This document shows positions 1,221 through 16,988 of a DNA stretch of 64,000 nucleotides, piece after piece. A model generated the notes under the pieces. That model ran no database searches. It had not been told where the DNA came from and saw nothing but the letters and a program-made list of their open reading frames with translations. The stretch comes from Treponemataceae bacterium (GTDB lineage: Bacteria > Spirochaetota > Spirochaetia > Treponematales > Treponemataceae): the NCBI GenBank assembly GCA_024680915.1, contig JAILBN010000023.1, positions 1 to 64,000 on the forward strand, in the 5' to 3' direction. Every line of letters begins with the position of its first letter. Position 1 is the first letter of the stretch. The position numbers and the translations under genes were made by a program.

Positions 1221-1718
1221 TTAGTGCGTCTGTCCTTTATTATTTAAGGATTCGTAATGATCTTTATCTCGATACTTAAAAACTTTTGCAGGGTGCCCAC
1301 CAGCAATAGCACAATATGGTATTTCCCCTACCACAACACTACCTGCTTGAATGATAGAACCTTCTCGTATGATAGAACCTCCTAAAATAATAACCCTATC
1401 CCCGATCCATACATTGTCTTCAATCAATATGGGTTTTTCAATATACGAACTATCATATGGAACAGCACTTCCATTATCATAATTATGTATTTCAGAAATA
1501 ATTAAACATTGATTTCCAGAGTGAAAATTATTACCAATAACAACTTCTCCACATCCATATATTTTTATACCATTAAAATTAACATTACTTCCCAATTTGG
1601 TTTTAGGACTAACTTTTGAGTACTTATTCACATGCAAGTTCTCACCGTATTCAAGCACTTTTCTTTTGACAAAAAAAGCGTAAAGAATAGACAAGAGACG
1701 TTTTATAATTTTAATCAT
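1221..1718 (-). CDS. Hexapeptide-repeat (LbH) acyltransferase
   Basis: Left-handed beta-helix acyltransferase of the serine-acetyltransferase/maltose-acetyltransferase superfamily, likely O- or N-acetylating a sugar of the surface glycan. Imperfect [LIV]-G-x4 hexapeptide repeats run through the middle and end: VVIGNNFHSGNQC, PILIEDNVWIGDRVIILGGS, IREGSIIQAGSVVVG, then the closing IPYCAIAGGHPAKVFKYR typical of the family. I place the start at ATG 1718 (165 aa); a TTG seven codons upstream lies in IS-end DNA. The AGGACAGAG ribosome site for ATG 1718 is itself inside the IS terminal sequence, so the insertion now supplies its translation signal. Acceptor sugar unknown. Confidence 0.85.
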   Translation of the reverse strand: MIKIIKRLLSILYAFFVKRKVLEYGENLHVNKYSKVSPKTKLGSNVNFNGIKIYGCGEVVIGNNFHSGNQCLIISEIHNYDNGSAVPYDSSYIEKPILIEDNVWIGDRVIILGGSIIREGSIIQAGSVVVGEIPYCAIAGGHPAKVFKYRDKDHYESLNNKGQTH

Positions 1719-1726
1719 TTCACACT

Positions 1727-1943
1727 CTGTCCTGCCCAAAGTGAACTTGGACTTTTTTAGGAAAGCTTATAAGGTAGTTTAAGCCTGCTGCTGATGCAGC
1801 CAATAAGCTTTTCTGTTTATATCTGCAGTATGAAGTTTTTCTCTTCGTTCTGCAAGCCTAGCTTCCTTTCTTCCTGCAAAAAAATCTTCTGGAGTCAGAT
1901 AAAGAAGTGCGCCGTGAAGACGCTCGTTGTTGTAAAAATCAAT
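1727..1943 (-). pseudogene. IS3-family transposase 3' fragment (older, truncated copy)
   Basis: A fragment of an IS3-family element. Read on the minus strand from 1949 it encodes DQIDFYNNERLHGALLYLTP followed by EDFF-AGRKEARLAERREKL and a stop near 1780, the C-terminal 'YN-RLH-AL-YLTP' end of an IS3 OrfB integrase. The outer terminal repeat is at about 1731-1772 and is shared with the next copy at 1944. The upstream part of this transposase is missing; it is cut by the second element. Confidence 0.8.
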
Positions 1944-3307
1944 CTGTCCTGCCCAAAATAAACTTGGACTTTTTTAGGAAAACTTATAAGGTGGTTTAAG
2001 CCTGCTGCTGTTGCTGCCAATAAGCTTTTCTCTTCGTTCTGCAAACCTTAATTCCTTTCTGCCTTCAAAATAATCCTCTGGAATCAGATAAAGAAGTGCG
2101 CTATGAAGACACTCTTTTTTATAAACAATCAATCCACTGTGCAATTTTTCCTTTTGCATCTTCATAACTTAAGCATGTTGCCTGGGGAACGTGTTCAGTC
2201 TTCAGAGTTGAATGAAAACGTTCAAGTTTTCCGTTGCTCTGAGGATGACAGACTCGTGCTGCTGTTTCGTAAAGTTCCAGCAGAGAAATCAAAGATTTGA
2301 AATCCTTAGAAATGAACTGCTTTCTGTTGTCGTGGATATAATTCTTGCTTTTTCTTCTGGATACTTTTCCTTTACTCTTGCAATCAGAAACCTAATGTTT
2401 ATTCCCTCCATGTTTTCACATAATGCCCAGTCCAGAATCTTTCTGGAATAACCATTCATTATGCTATAAAATAATAAAACACACCATGAACCTTGATATA
2501 TGAAATATCTGTATGCTACTGTTCATTCGAAGCCCCGGGCTGGTAAAACCTTTTTCTTCGCTTCTCCTTCATTTTTAGCCCTTTGTGAACTAAATCGTAC
2601 TCTTTCATGGTGTTATAAACGCTCGCAGGACGGACAAAGGCTACATTCTATTCTATCATCTGCCATTCAAGGTAGCGGTAGCCGTCAAGAAAGTTCTTGA
2701 GGGCGAGGACATACTTTACAAAAGGCACTCTTTCTTCCGGCGTATACCTGTTGCGTTTTGGAGTTGCGTGATTATGCCTTGTCTCAATTCTTTTCCTTGT
2801 CTGTCATTCATGCCAAGTACTTTTAGAAACTCCTGTAAAAGTTACTAAAACTGGAACAATGATTTCGGTTTTCTCTGCCATCTTCTGCACTTCAGTTTCT
2901 ATCTGAGTCCGCGTTTTAAGGCTGACCTTTTCTTTCCCTAGCTCCGACCCCAAAAGTTTTTTATCATCATGTTTTCTTCTGCAATCTCAGCTATAACTTC
3001 GTCCTTCTTTTTTAGCTTTGCTACCAGATCTTCGATTTTCCGTTGCTGCGCTTTTTCCGTTATATCTGGTCTGTGACGGTCGAAGCTTTTTCAAGAAATT
3101 CTTTCTTCCAGTTCAGGATCATATTCGTATGAATATTGTTTTCCTGAACAACATCGCTTACCGCTCGTTCATCTTGAATTACTGACATTATCATTTTCAG
3201 CTTTTCTTCTGAGCTGAATGCCCGTCTTATTCTTCCCATAAGGTTCCTTTCTTTTGTGATTATACACCTTATTAACTTTCCTTTTTTAGTCCAAGTTGCG
3301 GTTAGGC
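1944..3307 (-). mobile_element. IS3-family insertion sequence, decayed
   Basis: Near full-length IS3-type element with imperfect terminal inverted repeats. The left end (about 1949-1990) and the right end (3265-3307, read on the minus strand) share the TGCC start and AACTTGGACT, followed by AGGAAA. OrfA begins at ATG 3240 (MGRIRRAFSSEEKLKMI...), a helix-turn-helix protein that stops early. OrfB pieces are recognisable in several frames: DWALCENMEGINIRFLIA, SDN-KQFISKDF, HPQSNGKLERFHSTLK, and a C-terminal piece at 1974-2165. Frame changes and stops show it is dead. There is no intact gene in this stretch. Small open frames on the plus strand here are by-products. Confidence 0.85.
2166..3240 (-). 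pseudogene. IS3 OrfA/OrfB transposase remnants
   Basis: Broken transposase genes inside the IS. OrfA starts at 3240 with MGRIRRAFSSEEKLKM and ends early at an in-frame stop after about 59 codons. Further downstream the DDE integrase core can be followed only by changing frame: WALCENMEGINIRFLIARVK, then SDNRKQFISKDFKSLLELYE (second catalytic Asp), then HPQSNGKLERFHSTLKTEHV (catalytic Glu). No continuous reading frame spans the region. Confidence 0.75.
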
Positions 3308-4879
3308 ATTACAATCAAATCCTAAATTGACAATATTCCTAATTGCATTTATGGTTGATTCCTTGGCGTTTTCTTTCCAAAATAAATTCGTGTCATAATC
3401 AATACTATCAGAGTCCATTCCAAACATAATATCCTCCGCTGAATTAACTAGAATCGCATATCTAGAATCTATCAATACTTGAACATGTTCTAAATGACCT
3501 ATATTCAAAATAAATGTTTTTAAATTATACCCTAAGCCTTCAAACAACGCAGTTGAATATACTCCAACTTGTGCAATACTTTTTGAGAATAATTTATAAA
3601 TTGACACATCTGCGTTATCAACCACCATCACTCCAGATTCAAGTAACCAAGGGTAAGATTCTTGCCATGTAGAATACTCACCAGGATGAAGTTTATAAAC
3701 TATGGAATAATTGACTTTTGCCTTTATCAATAAGTTTTGTAATGACACAGCAAGTCGAGATAATTTCTCTCCAATAGTGCCACTAGAAATAAATATAATG
3801 GCATTGCGTTTTTCACATGTCGGATATTTTCTAATTGATTCTTCATAATACGGAAAACCTGTAGATAGAACCTTAACAGTTTTTAGGGGAAGTCTCATTT
3901 GGTTTTTCCAGAAATCAGAAAAACACAAAATATAATCTGGTAATATTTTATACTCACAATCATAAATTGCCCAATTATAGGCTACATGATATCTACCGGT
4001 AAGACCATGTTGTAATTCGATAATAGGGACTTTCATTTCATGAAGCAATTCATTAACAACCATGTTTTCAAAACGATAATATACAACTTCAATTATAACT
4101 TTTGCTTTCACAATAGGAAGCATGTTTTTAAAATATTTTTTTGTGATAACGTAATATTTATATAGATGAAATACCTTTGATAAGATAGAATCTGGATTTA
4201 TTACAACATTACTAAAATTCTTAATTCTTTTAGAAATAATATATAATGTGTCTCTGATATCACCAATCTCAGAATCAGTTAGTTTTAGTCTCCATAGTTT
4301 ACTAATTATCGATCTTATATAGAACAATCGGTCTGTATAAAAGATATTCTTTGTTTCACACGGAACATAATGACACCCCTCATTTGGATGTTCACAGGTA
4401 AGAGAATCATCAAATATATTTGCAATTGGGTCTGTATATTGACTTACATACTTTCCGTTCTCTAATATTCGCCTTGGATGACAAAAAATCAATACAGATT
4501 TAGAGCCTTTATAATTCTTTATACTATATTTTTTCGAAAATATTATTCTGGCAATATTCTTGAATAATTCCAAAGAATTGAAATGTGTTTTATTAAATGA
4601 AACCCCATCATTGTTAATTTTCGATATTATTGATGTATATGTTTCCTCTCTAATATATTGCCAATAATAAAAACCTCTAAAGGACTTAGAATATAAATCT
4701 AGTTCTTTTTCCATTTTTATATAATCTTCAATGATATGATTTGATGGCACGTACCCCCCCCTACAATACTCAATAAAATAAAAAAAACATACTGTCATTA
4801 TATACAATTTAAAATGAATCGTTGTTTTTAATATGGCTTTTAAATAAAAAGATATTTTTTCCCTAATTCTCTTTAGCAA
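3302..4879 (-). CDS. GT-B type capsule/teichoic-style glycosyltransferase
   Basis: About 525-residue protein resembling capsule polysaccharide and CDP-glycerol/polysialyl-type GT-B transferases. The middle has IELQHGLTGRYHVAYN, the C-terminal half has IYKLHPGEYSTW and TALFEGLGYN, motifs around the nucleotide-sugar pocket of such enzymes. The frame opens at TTG 4879, overlapping the polymerase gene by 17 bp. GTG 4750 or ATG 4714 are alternative starts, and the family-like part (FRGFYYWQYIR) begins only near residue 68. A run of eight G (4754-4761, coding strand) sits between the TTG and those starts. The stop codon TAA and the last Ala codon come from the IS terminal repeat, so the native end may be lost. 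Confidence 0.65.
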   Translation of the reverse strand: MLKRIREKISFYLKAILKTTIHFKLYIMTVCFFYFIEYCRGGYVPSNHIIEDYIKMEKELDLYSKSFRGFYYWQYIREETYTSIISKINNDGVSFNKTHFNSLELFKNIARIIFSKKYSIKNYKGSKSVLIFCHPRRILENGKYVSQYTDPIANIFDDSLTCEHPNEGCHYVPCETKNIFYTDRLFYIRSIISKLWRLKLTDSEIGDIRDTLYIISKRIKNFSNVVINPDSILSKVFHLYKYYVITKKYFKNMLPIVKAKVIIEVVYYRFENMVVNELLHEMKVPIIELQHGLTGRYHVAYNWAIYDCEYKILPDYILCFSDFWKNQMRLPLKTVKVLSTGFPYYEESIRKYPTCEKRNAIIFISSGTIGEKLSRLAVSLQNLLIKAKVNYSIVYKLHPGEYSTWQESYPWLLESGVMVVDNADVSIYKLFSKSIAQVGVYSTALFEGLGYNLKTFILNIGHLEHVQVLIDSRYAILVNSAEDIMFGMDSDSIDYDTNLFWKENAKESTINAIRNIVNLGFDCNA

Positions 4880-6248
4880 AAGATCTTACTCGTAAAATCT
4901 TAACAGCTCTTAGCAAAAAAGTAAGTACTAATACCATTAATAACTCTGGTGCAATGATAAATGGAAGTTGGAAAAAAGATTGATAATGCCCAAGATAACC
5001 TTGAACAAAGGTATAAGTGAGCATTGAGTAGAATCCCACAGACAACTCCTTATTGGAAGAAACCTCTATTTTATACATCATTTTCCTGTCAATAATTGCC
5101 GTTAATACAACTAACAAAAAAAGTACGATTAGAGACAAAGGAAGACCAAAATCTGCGTACAGATTGAATATTCCTATAGAACCTCCTGTTCCTCCACCCC
5201 CATCGATAACGTAATCCTTATATAAACTCGCATAAGCCTCTCGCGAAAGATTTACAGGTTTTCTGCCTATAAGCGAATCAATGAGTGTTAAGGAAACACC
5301 TTTACCAAACAAACATCCACCAAAACTTGAATCTAGTGTCATTTTTTGTAGATAAACCGAACTTGATTGCTGAACAAAAGCTCTTGTCAACATTGAGTTA
5401 AAACCATAAGAAAAGTTCTCAAGTCCCATGAATCCAGTATAAAGTGCAACAAAAAGAAATAATACTATGATTATAAAAATAATAATTCTCCGTCTAATTT
5501 TACGATTTTCATTCACGGGCTTCAATGAAAAACTTAAATTGGCTACAGGTATTAATACTCTCAATCTAATGTAATAATAATCAATAAAAATGATTATTAA
5601 TAAATATATTAATGGCACTTTTTCCGTAGTATAAAACTGCAAAAAAATGACAATAGCAAAGAAAATCCAAAACGGAACTCTGTACTTCCTCTTATTATTC
5701 AAATATTTTATATACAGTATACTGAAAAGATACAATGTAAGATAGCCAAATACTATTGTTCTATAATTATAAAAAAACGGTGCGTTATAATACGAAGTGA
5801 AATTATGTGTAACTTGCAGTCTTGCAATAGCAACAGAATAGACATCTTTACCAGAGATTAACATAACTAAAGGAATGTTACCTTTGATTATAACAAAGTA
5901 TCCAATAGCATATATTATTACAAAACTAATCAAAAGATATAGAAAAGTATCATCCACACTTCCCGAGTAACTATTAATAGTATGCTTTTGTCTTAATCTT
6001 TGACCAAATATCAGACCGAAAGGAATTATTAATGCATTCGCTAGATATAAAATATATAATGTAAAATCAAGCTTATTATATCCAAAGATCGTTCCATAAG
6101 AATTCGCAACACCTGAAAAAGAAAAAAGAATTGTGCTAATCAACATTACAAAGTCTGACAGAGATAATTGTTTTTTTCTTTTTACAAAGTAAAAAACAAT
6201 TCCAACTCCAGCAAGAAAGAAATATAATATTGATAACAATACTTTCAT
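4863..6248 (-). CDS. Wzy-like O-antigen/polysaccharide polymerase
   Basis: 461-residue integral membrane protein, probably the periplasmic-side polymerase that joins repeat units. It shows roughly ten to twelve hydrophobic helices (first: LLSILYFFLAGVGIVFYFV) with a larger loop around residues 280-360 containing LTRAFVQQSS and the GKGVSLTLIDSLIGRKP segment, the usual shape of O-antigen polymerases. Sequence conservation in this family is low, so the call relies on topology and on its place between a deacetylase and a glycosyltransferase. ATG at 6248 follows a GGAAAATG-type ribosome site. Very AT-rich compared with araB or gyrB. Confidence 0.75.
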   Translation of the reverse strand: MKVLLSILYFFLAGVGIVFYFVKRKKQLSLSDFVMLISTILFSFSGVANSYGTIFGYNKLDFTLYILYLANALIIPFGLIFGQRLRQKHTINSYSGSVDDTFLYLLISFVIIYAIGYFVIIKGNIPLVMLISGKDVYSVAIARLQVTHNFTSYYNAPFFYNYRTIVFGYLTLYLFSILYIKYLNNKRKYRVPFWIFFAIVIFLQFYTTEKVPLIYLLIIIFIDYYYIRLRVLIPVANLSFSLKPVNENRKIRRRIIIFIIIVLFLFVALYTGFMGLENFSYGFNSMLTRAFVQQSSSVYLQKMTLDSSFGGCLFGKGVSLTLIDSLIGRKPVNLSREAYASLYKDYVIDGGGGTGGSIGIFNLYADFGLPLSLIVLFLLVVLTAIIDRKMMYKIEVSSNKELSVGFYSMLTYTFVQGYLGHYQSFFQLPFIIAPELLMVLVLTFLLRAVKILRVRSFAKEN

Positions 6249-6273
6249 CTACATTTTCCTAACAACTTCAGAT

Positions 6274-7071
6274 TTAAATACTATACTTTATACCCTGTAA
6301 TAGCCGTAAAAAGTTTTCTTTGCTATTTCCTTTAATATCCACAACCCAATTCCTTGGATGTGTAAGCATCATTATAATTTTTGTGTTTCTGTTAATGCTC
6401 GATATTACTTCTTCTGAAAATCTATCAAGTAATATTTGATCAGCAAACCTCTCATTAACAAAATCATTTATGCTTTTATCATATGCTTCAACTAAAATTT
6501 TTCCCTTCTCACGAATAATCACATCATTTTTTAACAACTCATAGTTTTGAAACTGCAATCGTGTATTAATAAAATCTCCATGAGAAGCAACTGTCAAACT
6601 CTTTGAAGCTGTTTTTAAACGATAATCAATAAGATCTTCAATAAATAAATTCTGAATATCTGGAAGCACTTGTTTTATTAACTCAACATCCCTAAACCTA
6701 TGTTTCTTTTCATAATCTGCAATTTCTTCGTAATGGTATCCTGTCTCATAACCATATTCCTCAATTTCTTTTATTAGATTAACATCAATTGTTGATTTCC
6801 TAAAATAATAGGTAGATGACCCCTTACTACCGTAAACTTGTTTTTCAATCTCAAACATTTTTCTAGCTATTTTAGGTGACGTGTCAATATCATGCCTATT
6901 AATTAAAATTTTAGTATTACTGTCAAAATCTTTAGAATTAAGTATATTATAGAAATCTAAAATACCTACCATTTTATACCCTTTAATTTTTGCCGTTTCT
7001 AGTAAGTTTTTATAACTAGGCAATCTATTGGGTTTAAAATAATCCTCGTATATTCTTTTTACAAATCTCAT
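6274..7071 (-). CDS. Polysaccharide deacetylase-like protein
   Basis: 265-residue protein of the carbohydrate esterase 4-like fold. Visible are ILINRHDIDTSPKIARKMF, where the HD pair matches the catalytic-base/metal ligand site, YYFRKSTID, and GYETGYHYEE, the usual position of the metal-binding histidine, followed late by MMLTHPRNW. No signal peptide is visible, so it probably works in the cytoplasm on a nucleotide- or lipid-linked sugar. RBS GAGGAGCTAAA precedes ATG 7071. It follows a 155-bp gap that contains a branched hairpin structure. Confidence 0.65.
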   Translation of the reverse strand: MRFVKRIYEDYFKPNRLPSYKNLLETAKIKGYKMVGILDFYNILNSKDFDSNTKILINRHDIDTSPKIARKMFEIEKQVYGSKGSSTYYFRKSTIDVNLIKEIEEYGYETGYHYEEIADYEKKHRFRDVELIKQVLPDIQNLFIEDLIDYRLKTASKSLTVASHGDFINTRLQFQNYELLKNDVIIREKGKILVEAYDKSINDFVNERFADQILLDRFSEEVISSINRNTKIIMMLTHPRNWVVDIKGNSKENFLRLLQGIKYSI

Positions 7072-7123
7072 TTTAGCTCCTCTATATTTGTTTAGTTAAT
7101 TCTTCATCAGTTCCATGTACAAC

Positions 7124-7195
7124 AATACATCACTATACTGATTTTTATCATAAAAATGAAATGACTGCCATTTCAACTGAATAGTGAATTGTATT
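7124..7195 (-). ncRNA. Three-way-junction leader structure upstream of the deacetylase gene
   Basis: Within the 155-bp gap between the ketoisomerase fusion and deacetylase genes the minus-strand RNA can form a closed branched structure. The outer helix pairs 7124-7129 with 7190-7195 and 7130-7136 with 7181-7187, with a two-base bulge. It encloses hairpin GAAATG-n5-CATTTC (7158-7174) and hairpin ATTTTTA-n3-TAAAAAT (7141-7157). All stems are perfect Watson-Crick. No run of U follows, so it is not a simple terminator. Function unknown. Confidence 0.4.
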
Positions 7196-7226
7196 ACATT
7201 ATTTCTATAAACAAGAACAATTTATA

Positions 7227-8138
7227 TTACTTTTCCGTAAATCGTCTGAATTCTTTATAATCCCTTATATAATCCTCAGCTTTGTAGTAGTCGGATGCCG
7301 CAACACAAAGTACAGAATCTTTTTGTAACCAAAGCATTTCTCTCCATGTACATTGATCAATTATAACACCGATGCTCGGGTCAGAGAGTTCTATCTCTTC
7401 TCGTCCACTTTTGTTCTCAAGAATTAGTTGAATACGTCCATATGGACAAAATAATAGCTGCTTCAGTTCCTTATGAGCATGAAATCCTCGTCTTACTCCT
7501 TCTGGAACTTTTGAAATATAATAAATACGTTTAATCTCAAATGGAATCTCTCGTGTTGCCTCGAAAAATGAGAGTTCTCCAGCATCAATAGTCGGAATTG
7601 TCTTAATATGAATTACTTTACATCCAGCAACAGTCTCTCTAACATTAAATTCATCCCCCTTAAGAACAGAATACCATTTAAGGTTCTCTATTCCATTATA
7701 TCTTTTAAGAATCTTTTCTGGAACCTCTACAACTTCATGGAAATTATGCTTATCATAGAATCGTACTGCTCTATCGTTATCTCGAGCAACACACCAATAA
7801 ACACTCTCTAGTTCAAGTTCGTTAAAAGCCTTATTAAGTATAGCCTCCATCCCAAACCATGAATAACCTCGCCCCATTGCAACCGCACGAACAGTTATCG
7901 CAAATTCAGCACTACCATCTTCAATATTTTTAAGGCTTACAGTGCCCATATATTCATCAGTATCAGAAACGATAGCAAGATGTATATTCCTTTCAGAGAT
8001 ACTTGATATAATAAAATCCTGACAATCATCCATTGTTTTTGCAAGGAAATTTCCTCGAAGTTTTTCAACAACACTTATGTCATGCATCCATTCAAGCATT
8101 AAAGGAGCATCATCTTGCTTTAATTCTCTTAAATACAT
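7227..8138 (-). CDS. Fusion: GNAT N-acetyltransferase + FdtA/QdtA-like 3,4-ketoisomerase
   Basis: Two domains in 303 residues. Residues 1-160 are a GNAT fold (VSLKNIEDGSAEFAITVR, GRGYSWFGMEAI, NDRAVRFYDKHNF). Residues from about 172 are a WxcM/FdtA-type cupin: RIYYISKVPEGVRRGFHAHK with the two histidines expected at the active site, then CPYGRIQLIL and WREMLW. FdtA/QdtA convert dTDP-4-keto-6-deoxyglucose to the 3-keto sugar. The next upstream gene is an FdtB-type aminotransferase, so the pair plus the GNAT domain would make dTDP-Fuc3NAc or dTDP-Qui3NAc. Known bifunctional versions use a hexapeptide acyltransferase domain rather than GNAT. ATG 8138 with RBS GAGGA. Confidence 0.85.
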   Translation of the reverse strand: MYLRELKQDDAPLMLEWMHDISVVEKLRGNFLAKTMDDCQDFIISSISERNIHLAIVSDTDEYMGTVSLKNIEDGSAEFAITVRAVAMGRGYSWFGMEAILNKAFNELELESVYWCVARDNDRAVRFYDKHNFHEVVEVPEKILKRYNGIENLKWYSVLKGDEFNVRETVAGCKVIHIKTIPTIDAGELSFFEATREIPFEIKRIYYISKVPEGVRRGFHAHKELKQLLFCPYGRIQLILENKSGREEIELSDPSIGVIIDQCTWREMLWLQKDSVLCVAASDYYKAEDYIRDYKEFRRFTEK

Positions 8139-8153
8139 ATATCCTCTTATTTT

Positions 8154-9248
8154 TTAAAATTCGTTTATAGCATCAACAACATACTGAATTTCTTCATCAG
8201 TCATTCCGTAATACATCGGAATGCTAAGTTCTGTAGCACTGATTTCTTCAGCAGTAGGTAACGTTCCCAGTGGAATGTTCAAGTCCTTATAACATTCCTG
8301 AAGATGAATCGGAATCGGGTAATGTTTGTTAGTTCCTATTCCTTTTTCATTTAAGTGCTTCTCAAGCGCTTTTCGTTCAGCACAACGGATGCCATATATA
8401 TGCCAAACTGGTACGCAATCTGTATTAACGTAAGGAATAAAAACCTTGGGATTAGTAATGCCCTCTGTATATTTTCGTGCAATTTGTCTTCGTTCTTCGT
8501 TCATCTTATCAAGATGGGACAATTTTGTTACTAAAAAAGCCGCCTGTAGTTCATCAAGTCTACTATTGTTTCCTTTGTAGATATGATGATACTTATAATC
8601 AGACCCATAGTTTCCAAGTGCACGTACCGTGTCTGCTAGTTCTTTATTGTTTGTCACAACAGCCCCTGCATCGCCAAGGGCTCCAAGATTTTTACCAGGA
8701 TAAAAGCTGAATCCTGCGGCATCTCCAAAAGTGCCGACTTTTTTCCCTTTGTACGTGGCACCATGTGCTTGTGCACAGTCTTCAATAACCTTTAGCCCAT
8801 GTATCTTAGCTATGCCCATTATTCGTTCCATATCGCATGCTTGTCCATAAAGGTGAACCGGCATGATAGCTTTCGTTTTCTCTGATATTGCCTCTTCAAT
8901 GAATTCTGGGTTTATATTAAATGTATGAATATCTGGTTCTACGAAAATCGGCTTTGCCCCTACATAAGTTACAGCCAGAGCTGTAGCAATATAAGTATTG
9001 GACGGAACAATAACTTCATCACCTTCACCAATCCCTAATGCCTTTAGTATAAGCATCAGGGCATCCAGACCATTTCCTACACCTACACAATACTTTGCAC
9101 CACAGTATTCAGCAAACTCTTTTTCGAATCTCTTATCTTCAGCACCATCAATATACCATGAGCGTTTGAAAACACGATCAAAAGCTTCACGAATATCTTT
9201 TTCCATTTCTTTCTCCATCGGGAGAAATGTCACAAACGGAATTTTCAT
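8154..9248 (-). CDS. fdtB: FdtB/QdtB-type sugar aminotransferase (DegT/DnrJ/EryC1)
   Basis: PLP enzyme of the DegT/DnrJ/EryC1/StrS family, 364 residues, the usual length. It would transaminate dTDP-3-keto-6-deoxyhexose. Motifs: [19 protein letters not shown] (cofactor phosphate site), [13 protein letters not shown], and [19 protein letters not shown], where K is the Schiff-base lysine. It lies 15 bp upstream of the ketoisomerase fusion, which supplies its substrate. RBS AGAGGT precedes ATG 9248. Assignment to FdtB rather than another 3-aminotransferase is by context. Confidence 0.85.
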
Positions 9249-9252
9249 TATA

Positions 9253-10470
9253 TTACCTCTGATTCTCCAGAATATCAGTTAAATATCTTTCTGCTACTTC
9301 TCTCTCTGAATAATGAATGGCGGTGTCTATAGCAGCTTGACCAATTTTATTTCTCTGCTCAGTACTCATAGTTGCAATTCTCATATACACATTCTCTAGT
9401 TCCGTTTGATTGCCAGGTTCACAGATAAATCCATTTACCCCATCCTTGATCAAGCCGTCAAAACCTCCACCTTTTGAAGCTATCGTAAGACAACCTTGTA
9501 ACATTGCCTCGATATACACCATTCCAAAAGTCTCACCATCACTGATAAGAGTAAATACCTGAGCTTCGCTCATTTTTTTTAGAACCTCATCTCTCGGAAT
9601 TCTTCCTGTAAATACAACTCGTTTTCCCGCATTTAGACTATGGGCAAGCTTATGTAAACTTTCTTCCTCAGGACCACCTCCTACAACAGTAAGAGTATCC
9701 TTTAGCCCTGAATTTTTCAAAAATGCTCTAATAACTACATCAAGATGTTTACGTTTTATCAGACTGCCAACATAAATATGGCGAATACCTTCTGAAAACT
9801 CCTGTTTATCGCAAACTTTTTTTGCGCATTGAACAGCATCGTTAGGAGCACCAGAATAACAAATAAAAGGTGTATTCAGCAAACCAAGCCTTCTCCTTAT
9901 ATCTTCAGCCTCTATTACTGAGCGTGCTCCAATTGCTCCGATTTTTTTTATATTTTCTTTTATACGGTATTTTTCGATATTGACTTCCGTACAATCATGA
10001 TGAAAAACAATCGAAGATTTTGCCTTGTACTTTTCTGCAAGAATTGCTGTTAATTCCGTACTAGGATTTGCAAAATGTCCAACCACTAAATCTGGTTCAA
10101 AACCTTCCTTTTTTAAGCATTCGAATATTTCATTTGCTTGCTTTTCCATCATCTCAGCTGAATATCCATTACCAGGAAATACCTTTATCATTGGAAATCT
10201 ATATACTTTAATTCCAAACTCTTCCCTAATCAATTTTTTTCTAGAACTTAATGGCGGAAAAATATTAGAGGTTGCCCCTGCCAGCTTATTTTTTATCTGA
10301 GGTGGAATTAAATAAAACAAGAAGGGAAACCTACTTGGACAATGAGCCACTATAACTTTATTCCCTGACTTAACCCACTCCTTAGCAAAATATTCAACTG
10401 TTCTTGTTGGTTTATTATCTCCAGAATCATCTGGTTGCGGATATAATTGAGTAATAACAAGTATGTTCAT
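9253..10470 (-). CDS. GT4-family glycosyltransferase
   Basis: 405-residue GT-B fold retaining glycosyltransferase. N-terminal acceptor domain starts [20 protein letters not shown]; the C-terminal donor domain has [55 protein letters not shown] and the GT4 E-x7-E motif region [16 protein letters not shown]. Cytoplasmic, membrane-associated enzyme adding a sugar to the lipid-linked repeat unit. Four bases separate it from fdtB, and it is ten bases after the next GT4 gene. Donor and linkage cannot be read from sequence. Confidence 0.9.
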
Positions 10471-10480
10471 TTTGTTCCAC

Positions 10481-11701
10481 CTATTTCACTACAAAGTTAA
10501 TTACTTCGCATAATTTATCCACCAATTCAGGCTGATCGTACATTTCCGCTACCTTTCTGCCATTTTCTCCCATTTGCGTTATCTCTTCATCACTTAGAGA
10601 AAACAGATACTTTATAGCTTTGACAAAAGATTCTGGAGTTTGATCTTCTGTCACAACACCACAGTAATATCTATCAATGAGGTTGTACCCCCATTTTGCA
10701 TTACAAATAATAGGTGTTCCACTTGCTAAATAGTCAAACAATTTACTCTGGCTTCCACCATATTTCATAAGATTTACTTGTTTATATGTTAATAGGCTTG
10801 CATCAGCATTCACCAGTATACCTGGTATTTGCTCTTTTTTAAATCTTCCAAAAAAATGAATATTGTTTAACTGATTCTTTGCTACATAATCTTTCAAGTT
10901 CTCAAGTTGATCGCCATTTCCATATATTTGGAAATCGACATTATCAATTTTTTCTTCATGAATTTTTTTTGCCGCTTCACAGATTTTGTTAACTTGATTT
11001 GCTGAACGGATTGATCCACAGTATACAATATTAAACTTATTCATATCCCATGGCAGTTCTTCTGAGAAATCTTTCAAACACTTATTGTAAGCCTCTAAAT
11101 CACATCCCATATTTATATGAAATACCTTACTATAATTAATCTTATTTGAATAGGATTGTTCTCTAAGATAGTCCTTTCCTCCCTCCATCGAGAAAATCAT
11201 AGCGTCACTTTTTAAATAAGCGTTACGCTCTAAACGATACAATACTCTTATAAGCGGGTTTTTTTTTGAATACCCAGCATACTCGATAATACTTTCTGGC
11301 CATAAATCCACAGTATCTGTGATTACTGGTATATTTTTAAAATAATGTTTCACAAAGGGGAATAAATATGCTTCACAGTTAATTATAACACTAGGCGTTT
11401 CCTTTCTAAAACTCTTCAGTCCAAAACAAAAGGCAAGCATATTCTTAATTCGCTGCATCCCATTTCCTGAGTATTTTGGGGTATTAATATACTTATAATG
11501 GATACCATCACAGATGTCCTCTATTTTCCCATTCTGTTCAACGATATCAATATTTGTATTATGAATAGTACTCGCCGCTACTATCGTAACGGAGTAACCA
11601 CGTTTTACCAGTTCCTTCCCCCAGTTATGGTAACGAAGCATAGTATTTAAAGGTGGTTGTTGTGCATAATGACATATTATCCAAACATTTTTACTGTTCA
11701 T
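10481..11701 (-). CDS. GT4-family glycosyltransferase (WbuB-like)
   Basis: 406-residue GT-B glycosyltransferase. The start NSKNVWIICHYAQQPPLNTM with RYHNWGKELVKRGYSVTIVA is typical of WbuB-like enzymes that add an amino sugar in O-antigen synthesis. The donor domain has FNIVYCGSIRSANQVNKICE, HFFGRFKKEQIPGIL and KLFDYLASGTPIICNA. Gap to the preceding GNAT gene is one base, so translation is probably coupled. Specificity unknown. Confidence 0.88.
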   Translation of the reverse strand: MNSKNVWIICHYAQQPPLNTMLRYHNWGKELVKRGYSVTIVAASTIHNTNIDIVEQNGKIEDICDGIHYKYINTPKYSGNGMQRIKNMLAFCFGLKSFRKETPSVIINCEAYLFPFVKHYFKNIPVITDTVDLWPESIIEYAGYSKKNPLIRVLYRLERNAYLKSDAMIFSMEGGKDYLREQSYSNKINYSKVFHINMGCDLEAYNKCLKDFSEELPWDMNKFNIVYCGSIRSANQVNKICEAAKKIHEEKIDNVDFQIYGNGDQLENLKDYVAKNQLNNIHFFGRFKKEQIPGILVNADASLLTYKQVNLMKYGGSQSKLFDYLASGTPIICNAKWGYNLIDRYYCGVVTEDQTPESFVKAIKYLFSLSDEEITQMGENGRKVAEMYDQPELVDKLCEVINFVVK

Positions 11702-11702
11702 T

Positions 11703-12314
11703 TTAGTTCAAACCTCTATATCTATACTCATTCATTCTACGTCCTTCAGCCGTTACGAATGTTCTTTCTATTTTAAATCCGTTCTTTTCATAAAACCTAT
11801 TCACGCCATCATTACCATCAGCATCCGTTTCCAGGTTTATATAGGCGTAAGTATCGAAATCAACTATATCTTTTAAGCAGTTAATCAGTGCCGATCCTAC
11901 ACCTTTACTCTCTATAGCCGGATCAACACAGATTGATGCAAGTTCTACATATTTTTCTTCTTTAACCACACTCTCACTTTTCTTAAAAGCTCCAAACAGG
12001 CGTTTGATGAAGGATGGGTGACGAATTGCAGCACCTAATGAACAGAAGGCAAACTTTATAAGATGATTCTTGATAAGACCTTTGTAAAAACGTGGGTAAT
12101 CATAGGAGTAAGCAATGAAACCTACAAGCCTATCTCCTTCTTCAGCGACTATAATTCCAGATTCCTTGTCTTCCATGTAGCCAGTGTAGAGGGTCGTTAG
12201 AAAGGGAACGCCAAGTTGTGTAAGAAAAAATGAAGAAAAAGCTTGTTTGTGAAGCTCGGCAATGATTCTTATATATTCTGGACTGGACTTATAAAGTACT
12301 TTTATATCAGCCAT
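11703..12314 (-). CDS. GNAT N-acetyltransferase in amino-sugar cluster
   Basis: 203-residue GNAT protein: GIIVAEEGDRLVGFIAYSY (beta4), VELASICVDPAIESKGVGSA with the acetyl-CoA loop ESKGVGSA, then NRFYEKNGFKIERTF near the C-terminus. It sits directly next to the phosphoglycosyl transferase gene and between it and glycosyltransferases, and follows PglE/PglF-like genes. It could therefore acetylate the UDP-4-amino sugar made by those enzymes, a role played by the hexapeptide enzyme PglD in Campylobacter. That is inference from context; a protein or peptide target is also possible. Confidence 0.8.
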   Translation of the reverse strand: MADIKVLYKSSPEYIRIIAELHKQAFSSFFLTQLGVPFLTTLYTGYMEDKESGIIVAEEGDRLVGFIAYSYDYPRFYKGLIKNHLIKFAFCSLGAAIRHPSFIKRLFGAFKKSESVVKEEKYVELASICVDPAIESKGVGSALINCLKDIVDFDTYAYINLETDADGNDGVNRFYEKNGFKIERTFVTAEGRRMNEYRYRGLN

Positions 12315-13010
12315 TCAATAATATTCCTTTCCGAGTACCGCGAACACGGTTCTAAACATAGTTACTATATCTCGAAAAAAAGTGAACTTATTTATACTTT
12401 CCAAGTTCCACTTCATTTTTTCGGTGAGCACCTTTTCCACATAAGTTTTGTCTACATCATCCGCCGCACTCAGTAGCTTATCTTCATCTTTATAACGTAT
12501 ACTAGCTTCACTTGTTATTCCTGCTGGTATCAAAAGCGTAGCAAAGTATTCAGGCTTGTATTGCTCAACATATTTTAAAGCTTCTGGTCTGGTTCCCACA
12601 AAACTCATATTACCGCTGATCACATCAAACACCTGGGGCAATTCATCTAATCTAAGCCCTCTTAGCTTTGCCCCTACTTTAGTAATGCGATTGTCATTTT
12701 CAACCGTTACTGTCGCTCCTATTTTATCTGCATTGCTTACCATTGTACGGAACTTATGGATTCGAAAATGCTTTCCATATCTGGTTACTCGTTCTTGGCG
12801 GTAGAAAACTGTTCCAGAGCTATCTAATTTAATTACAATAGCTATTACTGCCATCGGGATAGCTAAAAACACCAATAAAACAATGGCTACAACCAAATCG
12901 AAAACTCTCTTTAGAAGAAGCTGTCCGCGTTTTTTATTAAGAATCTCCCAGTAAGGACGAACCTCCGGTACCTTCATAAAATCAGGGAGGTCATCCCATC
13001 GTTTCAGCAT
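12315..13010 (-). CDS. PglC/WcaJ-type initiating phosphoglycosyl transferase
   Basis: 231-residue monotopic phosphoglycosyl transferase that transfers a sugar-1-phosphate to undecaprenyl phosphate and starts the repeat unit. It has one N-terminal hydrophobic segment (RVFDLVVAIVLLVFLAIPMA), then VFYRQERVTRYGKHFRIHKF, RLDELPQVFDVISGNMSFVG with the catalytic DE pair, and GTRPE. The short form without the CoA-binding-like domain resembles PglC. Starts at ATG 13010 and overlaps the aminotransferase gene by 7 bp, so the two are translationally linked. Confidence 0.92.
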   Translation of the reverse strand: MLKRWDDLPDFMKVPEVRPYWEILNKKRGQLLLKRVFDLVVAIVLLVFLAIPMAVIAIVIKLDSSGTVFYRQERVTRYGKHFRIHKFRTMVSNADKIGATVTVENDNRITKVGAKLRGLRLDELPQVFDVISGNMSFVGTRPEALKYVEQYKPEYFATLLIPAGITSEASIRYKDEDKLLSAADDVDKTYVEKVLTEKMKWNLESINKFTFFRDIVTMFRTVFAVLGKEYY

Positions 13011-14329
13011 CCCTTAATCTCTCCAACAACCTCTTTCAATATCTCGCAAACATATTCAACATCTTCATCTGTTAGTAATGTATGCAGAGGTAAAGTAATT
13101 AAGTTTTTATAGTAGTCATAAGCGTTGGGAAAATCTTTAATATCCCATCCACACTGTTTATATGCCGTCATCATCGGAAGTGGTTTATAATGGACGTTAG
13201 TGGATACTCCCTGTTCAGCCATTTTTTCAATAATTGCATTTCTTGTCTCAACATCAATATCAGGGATACGGATCAGATAAAGATGATTTGAAGAATCCAT
13301 GTAATTTGTTTTATGCAAAAGATGCTTTATTACAAGCTCATCACAAATCTTATCATATTTTTTGATGATTTCTGCCCTGCGTAAAAGAAGGGAAGGATAT
13401 CTATCTAGCTGCCTGAGTCCGATAGCAGCCATTATATCCGTCATGTTGCACTTATACCAAGGACCGATTATATCATACTCCCATGCACCAACCTTTGTTT
13501 TTGCAAGTGCATCCTTGTTCTGTCCATGAAGAGAAAGGAGTTGATACATCTTATAGATGTCTGTATTATCAATACCGCCTATTGGAATCCATGTACTAGC
13601 CCCACCCTCAGCAGTAGTAAAATTCTTCACAGCATGAAAGGAAAAAGAAGTGAAATCAGCTAATGCGCCACAAAACTTTCTTTCGCCTTTTAAAACCCTG
13701 CTTGCACCTAAAGAATGCGCGCAGTCTGCGACAATAGCAACTCTTCCAATAGCGTTCTGAATCCTTGAAGACAATTCTCCCAAGGGTGTTGTGTCAGACT
13801 CTATCGGCTTAAATAAAGCTCTCTTTCTATCCGCTATCTCAAAAACCTTCTCATAATCACAAACAATACCACCAAGATCTACAGTCACTATTGCTTTTGT
13901 TTTTTCTGTTATCGCCTTTTCAAGTGCGTCATAATCCATTTCTGGCATGTGAGTTACACAATCACCATCCTTTTGGATATCAACAAACTTGACAGCAGCT
14001 CCACAATGAATAGCTGCCGACGCTGAAGCCGTGTAAGTATATGCTGGAACAATAACCTCATCCCCAGGACCAACTCCAAAGATTCGAAGGTTAAGCTCCT
14101 CTGCTGCAGTTGCTGAATTAAGACAGACAACTCTATTGCTCCACCTTTCAACATCTACTTCTGTTTCTATATCTGTTTTTCCAGTTTCTATATATGCAGC
14201 AAGTCTCCGTTCCAAAAGCTTTGTCCTGGGACCTGTGGTAATCCAACCAGAACTAAGTGCTTCTGCAACTTCTTTTATTTCAAGTTCACTTATATCCGGT
14301 GGACTAAATTTTATTATTCTCTTTTCCAT
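13004..14329 (-). CDS. PglE-like UDP-4-keto sugar aminotransferase
   Basis: 441-residue DegT/DnrJ/EryC1 aminotransferase, longer than FdtB because of an insert around residues 165-195. Motifs: VVCLNSATAAEELNLRIFGV, VIVPAYTYTASASAAIHCGA, VADCAHSLGA, and SFSFHAVKNFTTAEGGASTW containing the PLP lysine. Preceded in the same direction by a PglF-type dehydratase (before loaP), it would aminate the 4-keto group of UDP-GlcNAc-4-keto-6-deoxy. It is the first gene after the structured leader; AGAGAG precedes ATG 14329. Confidence 0.85.
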   Translation of the reverse strand: MEKRIIKFSPPDISELEIKEVAEALSSGWITTGPRTKLLERRLAAYIETGKTDIETEVDVERWSNRVVCLNSATAAEELNLRIFGVGPGDEVIVPAYTYTASASAAIHCGAAVKFVDIQKDGDCVTHMPEMDYDALEKAITEKTKAIVTVDLGGIVCDYEKVFEIADRKRALFKPIESDTTPLGELSSRIQNAIGRVAIVADCAHSLGASRVLKGERKFCGALADFTSFSFHAVKNFTTAEGGASTWIPIGGIDNTDIYKMYQLLSLHGQNKDALAKTKVGAWEYDIIGPWYKCNMTDIMAAIGLRQLDRYPSLLLRRAEIIKKYDKICDELVIKHLLHKTNYMDSSNHLYLIRIPDIDVETRNAIIEKMAEQGVSTNVHYKPLPMMTAYKQCGWDIKDFPNAYDYYKNLITLPLHTLLTDEDVEYVCEILKEVVGEIKGC

Positions 14330-14387
14330 ATCTCTCTTTACTCAATATCCTATCATCTTATAGATGTTGTATATTTGTTTTTCCATT

Positions 14388-14526
14388 TAAAGACAGCTCT
14401 GCCATTGGCAATAGTAAGCGAAAATTCACGAAAGAACATCTATCTTACTATTACCCGTGAAATACTATAGTCACCATGCAGGGCATGTGCTTGAACCAAG
14501 CTCCATTCTGGCATAGGCTGTCTTTA
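14388..14526 (-). ncRNA. Structured leader RNA with pseudoknot, 5' of the glycan operon
   Basis: Minus-strand RNA of about 139 nt between loaP and the PglE-like gene. P1: 14388-14397 pairs 14517-14526 (10 bp). P2: 14400-14404 pairs 14509-14513 (5 bp) across a 2x3 internal loop. P3 hairpin: 14489-14493 with 14497-14501, 3-nt loop. P4 hairpin: 14475-14479 with 14483-14487, 3-nt loop. P5: 14407-14418 with 14444-14455, 12 bp with one G-U. Pseudoknot: CGTGAA 14456-14461 pairs TTCACG 14425-14430 inside the P5 loop. All pairings except the G-U are Watson-Crick. There is no U tract after it, so it is not a terminator. The arrangement recalls the Bacillus EAR antitermination RNA in an exopolysaccharide operon, but I do not recognise it as EAR. 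Confidence 0.7.
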
Positions 14527-14540
14527 TCCGTAATCTTCTT

Positions 14541-14569
14541 ATCTTACTCAATACAACAAATAGGGTCAA
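14541..14569 (-). promoter_or_regulatory. Promoter of the glycan operon
   Basis: On the minus strand: -35 TTGACC (14569-14564), 17-bp spacer, -10 TAAGAT (14546-14541). The -35 box abuts the loaP stop codon. Transcription would start near 14534, only about 8 nt before the first helix of the structured leader, so the RNA would be the very 5' end of the operon mRNA. Confidence 0.55.
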
Positions 14570-15097
14570 TCAGTCCCTTACCACCTGCCTATGCACTTCC
14601 TCATAGGTCAGGCCCACAATTTTCATGCCGTTCATAAAGTCAAGCTCTATGTTGACCCTTTTATTCCGCCTGTTTACGGCTACAATTTTTCCGGGGATAT
14701 TCTTAAAGGGGCCGTCTTTTATTACTATCCTGTCATTCTCATCAAAGGTCACAGGCACAATTCCTATGGTAGTACCGAATTTCAACAAGGAAGTAACAAT
14801 TCCAAGATCTTTTTCTTTAAGAGGTGCTATATCTGATGTATTGGGTAAAAAACGGAGAAAACCGGAGACAGAGGTAAGACACCTCAGTCTTGAAGGATCT
14901 TTTTCTTCTGTCTCAAAAAAAATATAACCTGGGAAAAAAGCTTCTGAATACTCTTTTCCTGTTTTCAGGCGCATTTGTTTTTTCAGGAAATAAAGCTTCC
15001 CTTGAAAAGGGCTTTCAGGACTTTCCAGCATGGTCTGTACTGCTTTTATGAACTTTTCTTCTAATCCTGTACGAACGGATATACAGTACATAACCAT
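14570..15097 (-). CDS. loaP: NusG paralog, LoaP/UpxY-type antiterminator
   Basis: 175-residue specialised NusG. The N-terminal NGN domain starts MYCISVRTGLEEKFIKAVQT and contains the typical FFPGYIFFE beta-strand with the LRCLTSVSGFLRFLP region. The C-terminal KOW motif is DRIVIKDGPFKNIPGKIVAV. Such paralogs bind RNA polymerase at particular leaders and suppress termination across long glycan or antibiotic operons. Here the gene lies 5 bp after pglF and directly before the structured leader and the long operon, the expected arrangement. Two in-frame ATG codons (15097, 15091) are both possible starts. Confidence 0.9.
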   Translation of the reverse strand: MVMYCISVRTGLEEKFIKAVQTMLESPESPFQGKLYFLKKQMRLKTGKEYSEAFFPGYIFFETEEKDPSRLRCLTSVSGFLRFLPNTSDIAPLKEKDLGIVTSLLKFGTTIGIVPVTFDENDRIVIKDGPFKNIPGKIVAVNRRNKRVNIELDFMNGMKIVGLTYEEVHRQVVRD

Positions 15098-15102
15098 AAG
15101 CT

Positions 15103-16944
15103 TTATCTGTAATTTTCCTTGTCACTGTCTGGCTTATGATATTCTGGTACGCTCTTCTGAACGAATTCCACCATTTTTTCGGGTGTCATCTCAAAAAGCT
15201 TAGATATTGTATTTGAAAGATATTCCTCTGTATATTCCGGATTGTTCACCACCTTTGCCCGGAAAATTTTCTGATTCTCCGTGGGCAGCGTATTATCCTT
15301 GTTAGCCAGGAGCTCCTCATAAAGCTTTTCACCAGGTCTTAGCCCCGTAATGACTATTTCGCTTCTTCCATCCCCAAAGGTAGAGATAAGCTTCTGGGCA
15401 AAGTCATATATTTTTACCGGCTCTCCCATATCCAGGACCATGACTTCTCCGCCCTTGGCAATAGTCGCCGCACGGAATACCAAGCCCACAGCCTCTTTTA
15501 TCGCCATAAAATAGCGGATAATACGTTTGTCCGTGACTGTTATAGGATAGCCACCTTTTATTTCCTCAAGGAAGGTAGGAAGCATACTGCCCCGGCTGCC
15601 TATAACGTTTCCGAACCTTACGCAACAGAACTCGGTCTCCCTGCTGTTCAAGGCAGAAGCTATCATTTCCACTACACGCTTGGTGGCTCCCATTATATTG
15701 GTCGGGTTTACGGCTTTGTCAGTGGAAATCACTATGACCTTCTGAACACCGTTCTTCCTTGCGCTGTTGAAAACATTATAACTTCCGCAGATATTGTTAA
15801 GGATAGCTTCCTCCGGGTAAATCTCCATAAGAGGAACATGCTTGTATGCAGCCGCATGAAGAACTATATCCGGCTTGAACTCGTTGAATATCCGCTCGAT
15901 CTTCGCCGCATTCTTGATATCGCATACAACAGGAACTATCTGGTCACTCCATTCCGCCTGATAATTCAAGAGTCTTAGACCAAGGTCATGAAGCTCTGTC
16001 TCGTCAATATCAAGCAAGACCAGTCTTTTGGGTCCGAATTCCATAAGCTGTTGGCAAATCTCCGACCCTATGCTTCCTCCTGCACCTGTAACCATAATGG
16101 TTTTGCCTGAAAAAAGCTCCTGGACAGGCTCTGTCTTGGAAGTGATCAAAGATCTTCCCAGTAAGTCAGCATAATCAATATCACGGACAGAAATATCATT
16201 TGCCTTCTTTTGCTCGAAAAGCCCCGGAATAATCTTTACGTCTATATCATATTTTTTAGCTGTCTCTACTGCCTTCTGAATTTTCTCGGCACTTATTACA
16301 CTTATGGCTATAATAAGCTTATCAAAGCTTTCTGTACGGGCTATTTCCTCAAAATCGTCAATAGAACCCTTTACCTCCACCCCTTGAATAAGACGGTGCC
16401 TCAGCTGGGGATTATCATCTATGTAACCGATGATGCAGTAATTGAAGGCCCCTTTATGGGACATACGTACCATTGTGGCACCTACGTTACCAGCTCCGTA
16501 CACATATGTCCTTGGATAATTGGAACGGAACCTGTAAAAGCCCAGCATACGGTACATATATCTTATACCCATAGTACCCATCAAGGCAAAAAGGGAATAT
16601 ACGACGCTCCATCTCACTCTTTGGTCGACAAAGCCGTAAAGGCATCCCAGTATTATAGTCGCCAGGACAAAAACGATTACAATAGCCACGCAGGCTCTGA
16701 AAATAAGATCGACAGAGCCGTCACTTATCCTTATCCTGTAATATTTCATCAGGACCAGGGCAAGAAGCTGGGCACATATATAAGCTGCGAATATGTATAT
16801 ATCTATTGAGCGGATATTACCTGCAATCAGGAATTGGGTGAAAACACCCATACAAACAAAAGTAAGTATATCACAAACGAACAGTATAAAAAATTTTTGT
16901 TTTCTAGTTTTTTTTTCTAGACCTATTTTCACTACAAAGGGCAT
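15103..16944 (-). CDS. pglF: PglF/CapD-type UDP-GlcNAc 4,6-dehydratase (membrane)
   Basis: Inner-membrane nucleotide-sugar dehydratase. About four N-terminal helices, a CoA-binding-like domain (YVYGAGNVGATMVRM), then the SDR domain: IMVTGAGGSIGSEICQQL (NAD site), HAAAYKHVPLMEIYPEEAIL, ISTDKAVNPTNIMGATKR carrying the catalytic T-D-K and a modified Y/M position typical of CapD/FlmA/PglF, and ITGLRPGEKLYEELL. It makes UDP-4-keto-6-deoxy-GlcNAc for the PglE-like enzyme. I prefer ATG 16944 (GGGGAG 11 nt upstream, 613 aa) to TTG 16980, which lies only 8 nt past a -10 box. Confidence 0.9.
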   Translation of the reverse strand: MPFVVKIGLEKKTRKQKFFILFVCDILTFVCMGVFTQFLIAGNIRSIDIYIFAAYICAQLLALVLMKYYRIRISDGSVDLIFRACVAIVIVFVLATIILGCLYGFVDQRVRWSVVYSLFALMGTMGIRYMYRMLGFYRFRSNYPRTYVYGAGNVGATMVRMSHKGAFNYCIIGYIDDNPQLRHRLIQGVEVKGSIDDFEEIARTESFDKLIIAISVISAEKIQKAVETAKKYDIDVKIIPGLFEQKKANDISVRDIDYADLLGRSLITSKTEPVQELFSGKTIMVTGAGGSIGSEICQQLMEFGPKRLVLLDIDETELHDLGLRLLNYQAEWSDQIVPVVCDIKNAAKIERIFNEFKPDIVLHAAAYKHVPLMEIYPEEAILNNICGSYNVFNSARKNGVQKVIVISTDKAVNPTNIMGATKRVVEMIASALNSRETEFCCVRFGNVIGSRGSMLPTFLEEIKGGYPITVTDKRIIRYFMAIKEAVGLVFRAATIAKGGEVMVLDMGEPVKIYDFAQKLISTFGDGRSEIVITGLRPGEKLYEELLANKDNTLPTENQKIFRAKVVNNPEYTEEYLSNTISKLFEMTPEKMVEFVQKSVPEYHKPDSDKENYR

Positions 16945-16988
16945 AAAAAATAAATCTCCCCATAAAAGCTTATTCTGCAACTCTTTTC

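Follow-up and report, generated by a model that had tools for sequence, protein, structure and literature searches.

On the minus strand of the window (the whole 64,000-nt stretch of Treponemataceae DNA that was analyzed), a UDP-sugar 4,6-dehydratase-like gene is followed by a loaP-like gene for a NusG paralog, a promoter-like site, a structured element, and a long run of glycan genes (Table 1). The glycan-operon proteins encoded at 3302-4879 and 6274-7071 (minus strand) have no Pfam match. The initial annotation had placed a highly structured RNA between the NusG paralog and its glycan operon, and the element was recovered there, at 14387-14527 on the minus strand; its minimum free energy is -51.8 kcal/mol (z = -5.4), and none of 200 shuffled sequences was as stable. 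The plus-strand fold gives z -4.7. The minus strand is that of loaP and the glycan operon, and it is also identified as the strand of the RNA, since many of the variants among homologs are G-U pairs, and these would become A-C mismatches if the opposite strand were read.

Table 1. Features of the loaP-linked leader RNA and its surroundings, in window coordinates.
Feature	Position	Strand	Basis or remark
LoaP-linked leader RNA: the entire conserved element in the window copy	14387-14527	minus	Covariance model R1, E = 6.9e-14 (own genome); R2, 79.6 bits; fold z -5.4
Promoter-like site TTGACC-17-TAAGAT	14541-14569	minus	Ends 13 nt 5' of the RNA
P1 5' strand AUAAAGACAG	14518-14527	minus	Partner 14387-14396; fold and covariation
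P1 3' strand CUGUCUUUAA	14387-14396	minus	Fold and covariation
P3 5' strand: weak GCC in the window copy, where most other copies have CCAUU	14516-14518	minus	Covariation, helix 2
P3 3' strand GGU; GGUGG in most other copies	14473-14475	minus	Covariation
P2 arm	14480-14509	minus	Covariation, helices 3 and 4
P2 core GGA-NCUUG-NUU-CAAGN-A-C, nearly invariant	14487-14504	minus	Invariant columns; candidate protein-binding hairpin
P4b 5' strand GGGUAAUAGUAAG	14444-14456	minus	Fold and covariation, helix 6
P4b 3' strand CUUACUAUUGCC	14407-14418	minus	Fold and covariation, helix 6
P4 loop, 25 nt, long in the window copy only	14419-14443	minus	Contains CGUGAA 14425-14430, opposite 14456-14461
Conserved 3' strand AAUGGnGAnG running into P1	14397-14406	minus	Paired in P4a in most homologs; covariation, helix 5
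loaP-like NusG paralog, 175 aa	14570-15097	minus	Best NCBIfam match NF033641 antiterm_LoaP; fold match 8f5g
UDP-sugar 4,6-dehydratase-like gene, upstream of loaP	15103-16980	minus	
PseC/DegT-type sugar aminotransferase, first gene after the RNA	13004-14329	minus	
Remaining glycan genes: sugar transferase, glycosyltransferases, acetyltransferases, aminotransferase, O-unit polymerase-like	1221-13010	minus	
Terminator-like hairpin closing the gene run	1146-1163	minus	

Conserved fold and covariation of the leader RNA

Of 274 genomes in the window's family (Treponemataceae-like), 140 gave a match to the LoaP protein; a contig search with the same protein returned two relatives only. The LoaP homolog L032, on the same contig as L012, is from a named Treponema sp., which marks the family as treponeme-like. 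A conserved sequence (UUAAAGGCAACCAUUGUUUGGCACGGAGCUUGGUUCAAGCACGnAnACCGGGUGGCGAACA...UUGCCAAUGGAGAAGGUGUCUUUAA) follows the nearest LoaPs. The covariance model R1, which was later refined to R2, matched 26 of the 274 family genomes at E ≤ 0.01, and 33 RNA instances were accepted in the fetched LoaP loci.

The conserved fold, on which the first consensus, a hand alignment of 24 sequences, and the refined model R2 all agree, is a three-way junction formed by the closing helix P1, a P3/P2 arm, and a long P4 arm; within the family, the RNA measures 115-140 nt. The P2 hairpin combines an asymmetric GA/A internal loop with an NUU triloop. In the R2 alignment of 33 sequences, both partners vary in 28 of the 35 base pairs; the covariation score of 0.348 compares with 0.159 ± 0.009 for shuffled alignments (reached by none of 500 shuffles) and with at most 0.129 for slid versions, and 87.0% of the cells are paired, versus 75.4% after shuffling. 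As a caveat, this alignment was fitted to the model and is biased towards it. The independent alignment of 24 sequences, made by hand and not fitted, still has both P2 and P3 exceeding all 500 shuffles in cells paired. Type 1 sequences hardly vary in P1, which makes that helix uninformative for covariation in the hand alignment. The initial annotation had called for a covariation test in homologs; homologs were found, and they covary strongly. A chance fold or a simple DNA repeat with no RNA function would have to account for covariation that beats both the shuffled and the slid controls, for G-U pairs that suit the minus strand only, and for 33 instances; with the homologs known, nothing speaks for it, the covariation refutes it, and its probability is practically negligible.

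The helices named in the initial annotation, five plus a pseudoknot, can be revised in this light: the element is structured, and P1, the P2 core, and P4b hold, but the helices should be arranged as a three-way junction, and the pseudoknot is unsupported. Two stems, the outer one of 10 bp (P1) and that of 12 bp (P4b), occur in the window copy and have counterparts in the homologs. One of the two proposed 5-bp hairpins with 3-nt loops, GCUUG-GUU-CAAGC, is the core of P2 and is kept in the homologs; the other, CAUGC CCU GCAUG, is not conserved, and its bases form part of the outer P2 arm and of P3 in the conserved structure. The 6-bp pseudoknot UUCACG/CGUGAA, which involves the 25-nt loop, does not occur in the homologs, and a comparable 6-bp match arises in about 11% of shuffles; the variable P4 region measures 56 nt in the window copy versus 28-46 nt in the others. 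Two further pairings were considered and rejected. The possible switch, in which CCAUUG pairs with the 3' CAAUGG, shows covariation not above that of shuffles in the hand alignment, and a second pseudoknot (GUUUG/CGAAC) gave an equivocal result, its paired count being reached by 23 of 500 shuffles.

An unrelated known RNA family, a possibility raised in the initial annotation, was not found: Rfam covariance models yielded no family for positions 14300-14620 even at E ≤ 10, EAR included. The window's own genome holds no convincing second copy (the C128 match consists of the 13-nt hairpin alone), and no convincing spread outside the family emerged from samples of the order (294 genomes) and of the phylum (296 genomes), under strict filters that lose weak matches. 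The single weak match outside the family, in G644, has no adjoining loaP and lacks the core hairpin, and it was discarded. Nothing on a treponeme LoaP RNA was found in the open-access papers searched. The RNA family is new relative to Rfam and the open papers searched, as are its size, architecture, phylum, and cassette behavior; RNA-guided NusG paralogs (LoaP) were already known.

Predicted transcript start and downstream glycan genes

The distance of the window's promoter-like site from the RNA puts the predicted transcription start about 6 nt before the element, in line with the spacing of about 8 nt given in the initial annotation. Among 28 scored instances, 13 have a promoter with at least 10 of 12 consensus positions that ends 6-8 nt 5' of the RNA, and a further three have a promoter matching 8-9 of 12 positions at the same spacing. 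Since a sigma70-like promoter ends 6-8 nt upstream in about half of the copies, P1 begins at the predicted +1, and the RNA opens the transcript. A minority of copies (G254, G198, and G165) has no such promoter; the RNA in these genomes would be transcribed from upstream.

The RNA begins 9-80 nt past the loaP stop in most loci and overlaps that codon in G254; this placement would suit a feedback element, with the RNA serving as the loaP mRNA's 3' untranslated region and setting the LoaP level. Such a role is nevertheless very unlikely: about half of the copies have their own promoter directly 5' of the RNA, glycan genes usually lie directly behind it, and the RNA can be divergent from loaP (a weak copy in G242), 2.4-8.3 kb downstream of it (six loci), or on a different contig (G236 and G159).

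Where they were identified, the genes behind the RNA are glycan genes of varied kind, encoding a glycosyltransferase 2, a UDP-sugar dehydrogenase, a dehydratase, a flippase, or Wzy. A metabolite riboswitch governing glycan synthesis would also appear as a compact, covarying leader that contains a junction, but the diversity of these first genes, the strict tie to LoaP described below, and the window leader itself, where no intrinsic terminator that could act as an expression platform was found between the RNA and the first gene, make this reading highly improbable. Inside the operon, 14 terminator-like sites were counted versus 5.6 in shuffles, with both strands summed; this is weak evidence.

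Association with one LoaP clade

When clade genomes are defined by a LoaP match of at least 150 bits, the RNA is present in 24 of 32 clade genomes versus 2 of 242 others (Fisher p = 1.8e-25). In a tree of 57 LoaPs, all RNA-linked proteins fall into one clade of 36 rows (support 100/99), and none of the 21 distant LoaPs is linked to the RNA. Eight clade genomes have no R1 match at the cut. Three of them, G009, G255, and G262, carry a divergent type 2 RNA, recovered in a smaller search, and a fourth, G252, has a broken loaP and a truncated RNA. In the remaining four, G003 (which holds the window's nearest LoaP relative), G194, G221, and G231, some of which are incomplete, no RNA was detected near loaP. 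The two genomes that contain the RNA without a clade LoaP, G115 and G238, have it on contigs that are short (3.9 and 10.2 kb). In the main group of distant LoaPs (L144-L160), a reading frame that looks like a nucleotide-sugar dehydratase/epimerase mostly comes directly after loaP, with no leader. Locus L076 (G071) holds as many as five loaP copies, full or partial, among other genes at 6303-14861, and an RNA only behind the last copy, 60 nt away.

The association of RNA and LoaP alone could stem from co-inheritance. Two loci of G254 (L079 and L080) share a 1,423-nt block of 98.8% identity that contains loaP and the RNA; the duplicated block stops 2 nt past the RNA, and a different glycan operon lies behind each copy. 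Several further locus pairs also lose their similarity at the 3' end of the RNA, and loaP and the RNA behave as a module. They also decay together in G252, where a loaP pseudogene with three stops is accompanied by a truncated RNA (L103, around 11619-11726, minus strand); the related G198 keeps both intact. These observations bear on an EAR- or put-like RNA able to modify RNA polymerase unaided, with LoaP as a separate factor that serves the same operons and leaves the RNA unbound. A large, complex three-way junction, beyond a simple protein-binding hairpin, speaks for such an RNA, and EAR likewise lies in an exopolysaccharide operon; yet the near-exclusive co-occurrence with one LoaP clade, the co-duplication and co-decay with loaP, and the failure of Rfam EAR to match render it unlikely.

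The window protein finds its best NCBIfam match in NF033641 antiterm_LoaP (89.3 bits, against a model cut-off of 125), and its AlphaFold model is a confident NusG fold (pLDDT 91.8). The best PDB match to the predicted fold is the NusG-RNA complex 8f5g_A (TM 0.75, rmsd 3.2, 176 columns, full length), which ranks above all other NusG structures for the arrangement of NTD plus KOW. Residues that are invariant or nearly so in the clade, and not in distant LoaPs, are K40, M42, R43, K45, and Y50 in the N-terminal beta-hairpin and N142, N145, and N149 in the KOW loop. The LoaP of Bacillus velezensis contacts its RNA through the E40/R41 and I143 regions, and mutating E40/R41 or I143 lowers or abolishes the production of difficidin and macrolactin (PMC12691694). 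The clade-specific residues map to these same regions, at positions that are approximate because they were aligned via the 8f5g sequence. E40/R41 and I143 themselves are not conserved in the clade, where the approximate alignment places K-x-M-R-L-K-x-G-K in the equivalent region; contact residues that differ from those of the B. velezensis LoaP are expected if the RNA differs. A UNCG-tetraloop hairpin was found in none of the 33 RNAs and in none of the 32 regions downstream of RNA-linked loaPs.

Proposed antitermination role and diversification

A conserved structure that is placed at the predicted transcript start, tied to one LoaP clade and to glycan operons, and joined to loaP as a module was recovered by computation. 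We consider it likely that this element acts as leader RNA to a surface-glycan operon and as the cis recruitment site of the LoaP-like paralog encoded upstream, serving processive antitermination. Three results weigh against this reading: the window leader shows no intrinsic terminator before the first gene, four clade genomes yielded no RNA near loaP, and the equivalents of E40/R41 vary. The initial annotation had offered a choice between the recognition element of the adjacent LoaP and a new EAR-like class; the covariation, the lack of an Rfam match, the LoaP-clade tie, and the glycan operons support this proposal. Anatomy, linkage in the genomes, and the example of Bacillus lead us to infer that LoaP may bind the RNA with the P2 hairpin as the contact and may act by processive antitermination. 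RNA polymerase would start at the promoter directly 5' of the element, and the first 120-140 nt would fold into the three-way junction of P1, the P3/P2 arm, and the P4 arm; LoaP could then grip P2, the hairpin that bears the GA/A internal loop and the NUU triloop, through the N-terminal beta-hairpin and the KOW loop. Loaded in this way on the elongating polymerase, LoaP would sustain elongation across a long operon prone to termination at terminators or by Rho, about 13 kb in the window.

The closest precedent is LoaP with the dfn/mln UNCG hairpin in Bacillus velezensis (mBio 2025, PMC12691694). In both systems, a LoaP-type NusG paralog adjoins a long biosynthetic operon, and the RNA lies in the 5' leader; the treponeme protein has its nearest fold match in 8f5g and its clade-specific residues in the same RNA-contact regions. 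In contrast to the small UNCG-tetraloop hairpin, the treponeme RNA is a three-way junction of 115-140 nt with a GGA...NUU...A hairpin, located at the predicted +1, and the contact residues differ; the dfn leader has an intrinsic terminator, whereas none was found in the window leader.

The EAR (eps-associated RNA) of Bacillus is likewise a large structured RNA on exopolysaccharide operons, and it probably acts on elongation; EAR is not known to have a dedicated NusG paralog beside it, and the treponeme RNA differs from it in having no Rfam match. RfaH with ops/JUMPstart resembles the present system as a NusG paralog for surface polysaccharide operons, with a short conserved site before varied polysaccharide genes; ops is read as non-template DNA, whereas RNA base pairing is conserved in the treponeme element. 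The ops element GGCGGTAGnnTG has no match in the leader, and its matches across the window are no more than expected by chance. UpxY of Bacteroides is also a NusG paralog, its gene standing first in capsule operons, but the UpxY model scores below LoaP on the window protein (31 vs. 89 bits), and the treponeme leader RNA falls outside every Rfam family.

If LoaP recruitment by the leader is correct, this would be a second LoaP-linked RNA, unrelated to the first, much larger, and from another phylum, available in 33 natural variants together with the matched proteins; the change of RNA specificity in NusG paralogs would become testable, as would the switching-on and exchange of surface-glycan operons in spirochaetes. 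More tentatively, spirochaete LoaPs and their leader RNAs may co-diversify, with one junction scaffold carrying a swappable recognition hairpin; in this proposal, the cassette of loaP, promoter, and RNA would be movable, its 3' edge would be the point of glycan-operon exchange and thus an RNA counterpart of JUMPstart, and the scaffold itself might contribute to polymerase modification.

Two hairpin types are distinguished, type 1 (GGAGCUUG...) and type 2 (GGAACUUG...), and a sister LoaP lineage perhaps carries a type 3 hairpin (GCCUGAUAGAGGC). In this lineage (L143 in G020, L110 in G131, and L161 in G224), the first 420 nt after loaP are leader-like and contain the hairpin GCCTGATAGAGG or GTCCGGTAGGGAC; L143 and L161 have the 3' framework GGGCGGAG in common with type 2 RNA, and the three sequences may represent a type 3 RNA. 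The type 3 pattern matched one genome only, so that this type rests on three sequences read by eye. Finally, L095, L096, and L076 belong to one LoaP subclade (support 100/100), and their RNAs share the hairpin variant GGAGUUUG-GUU-GAAGC, which hints at co-variation of protein and RNA.
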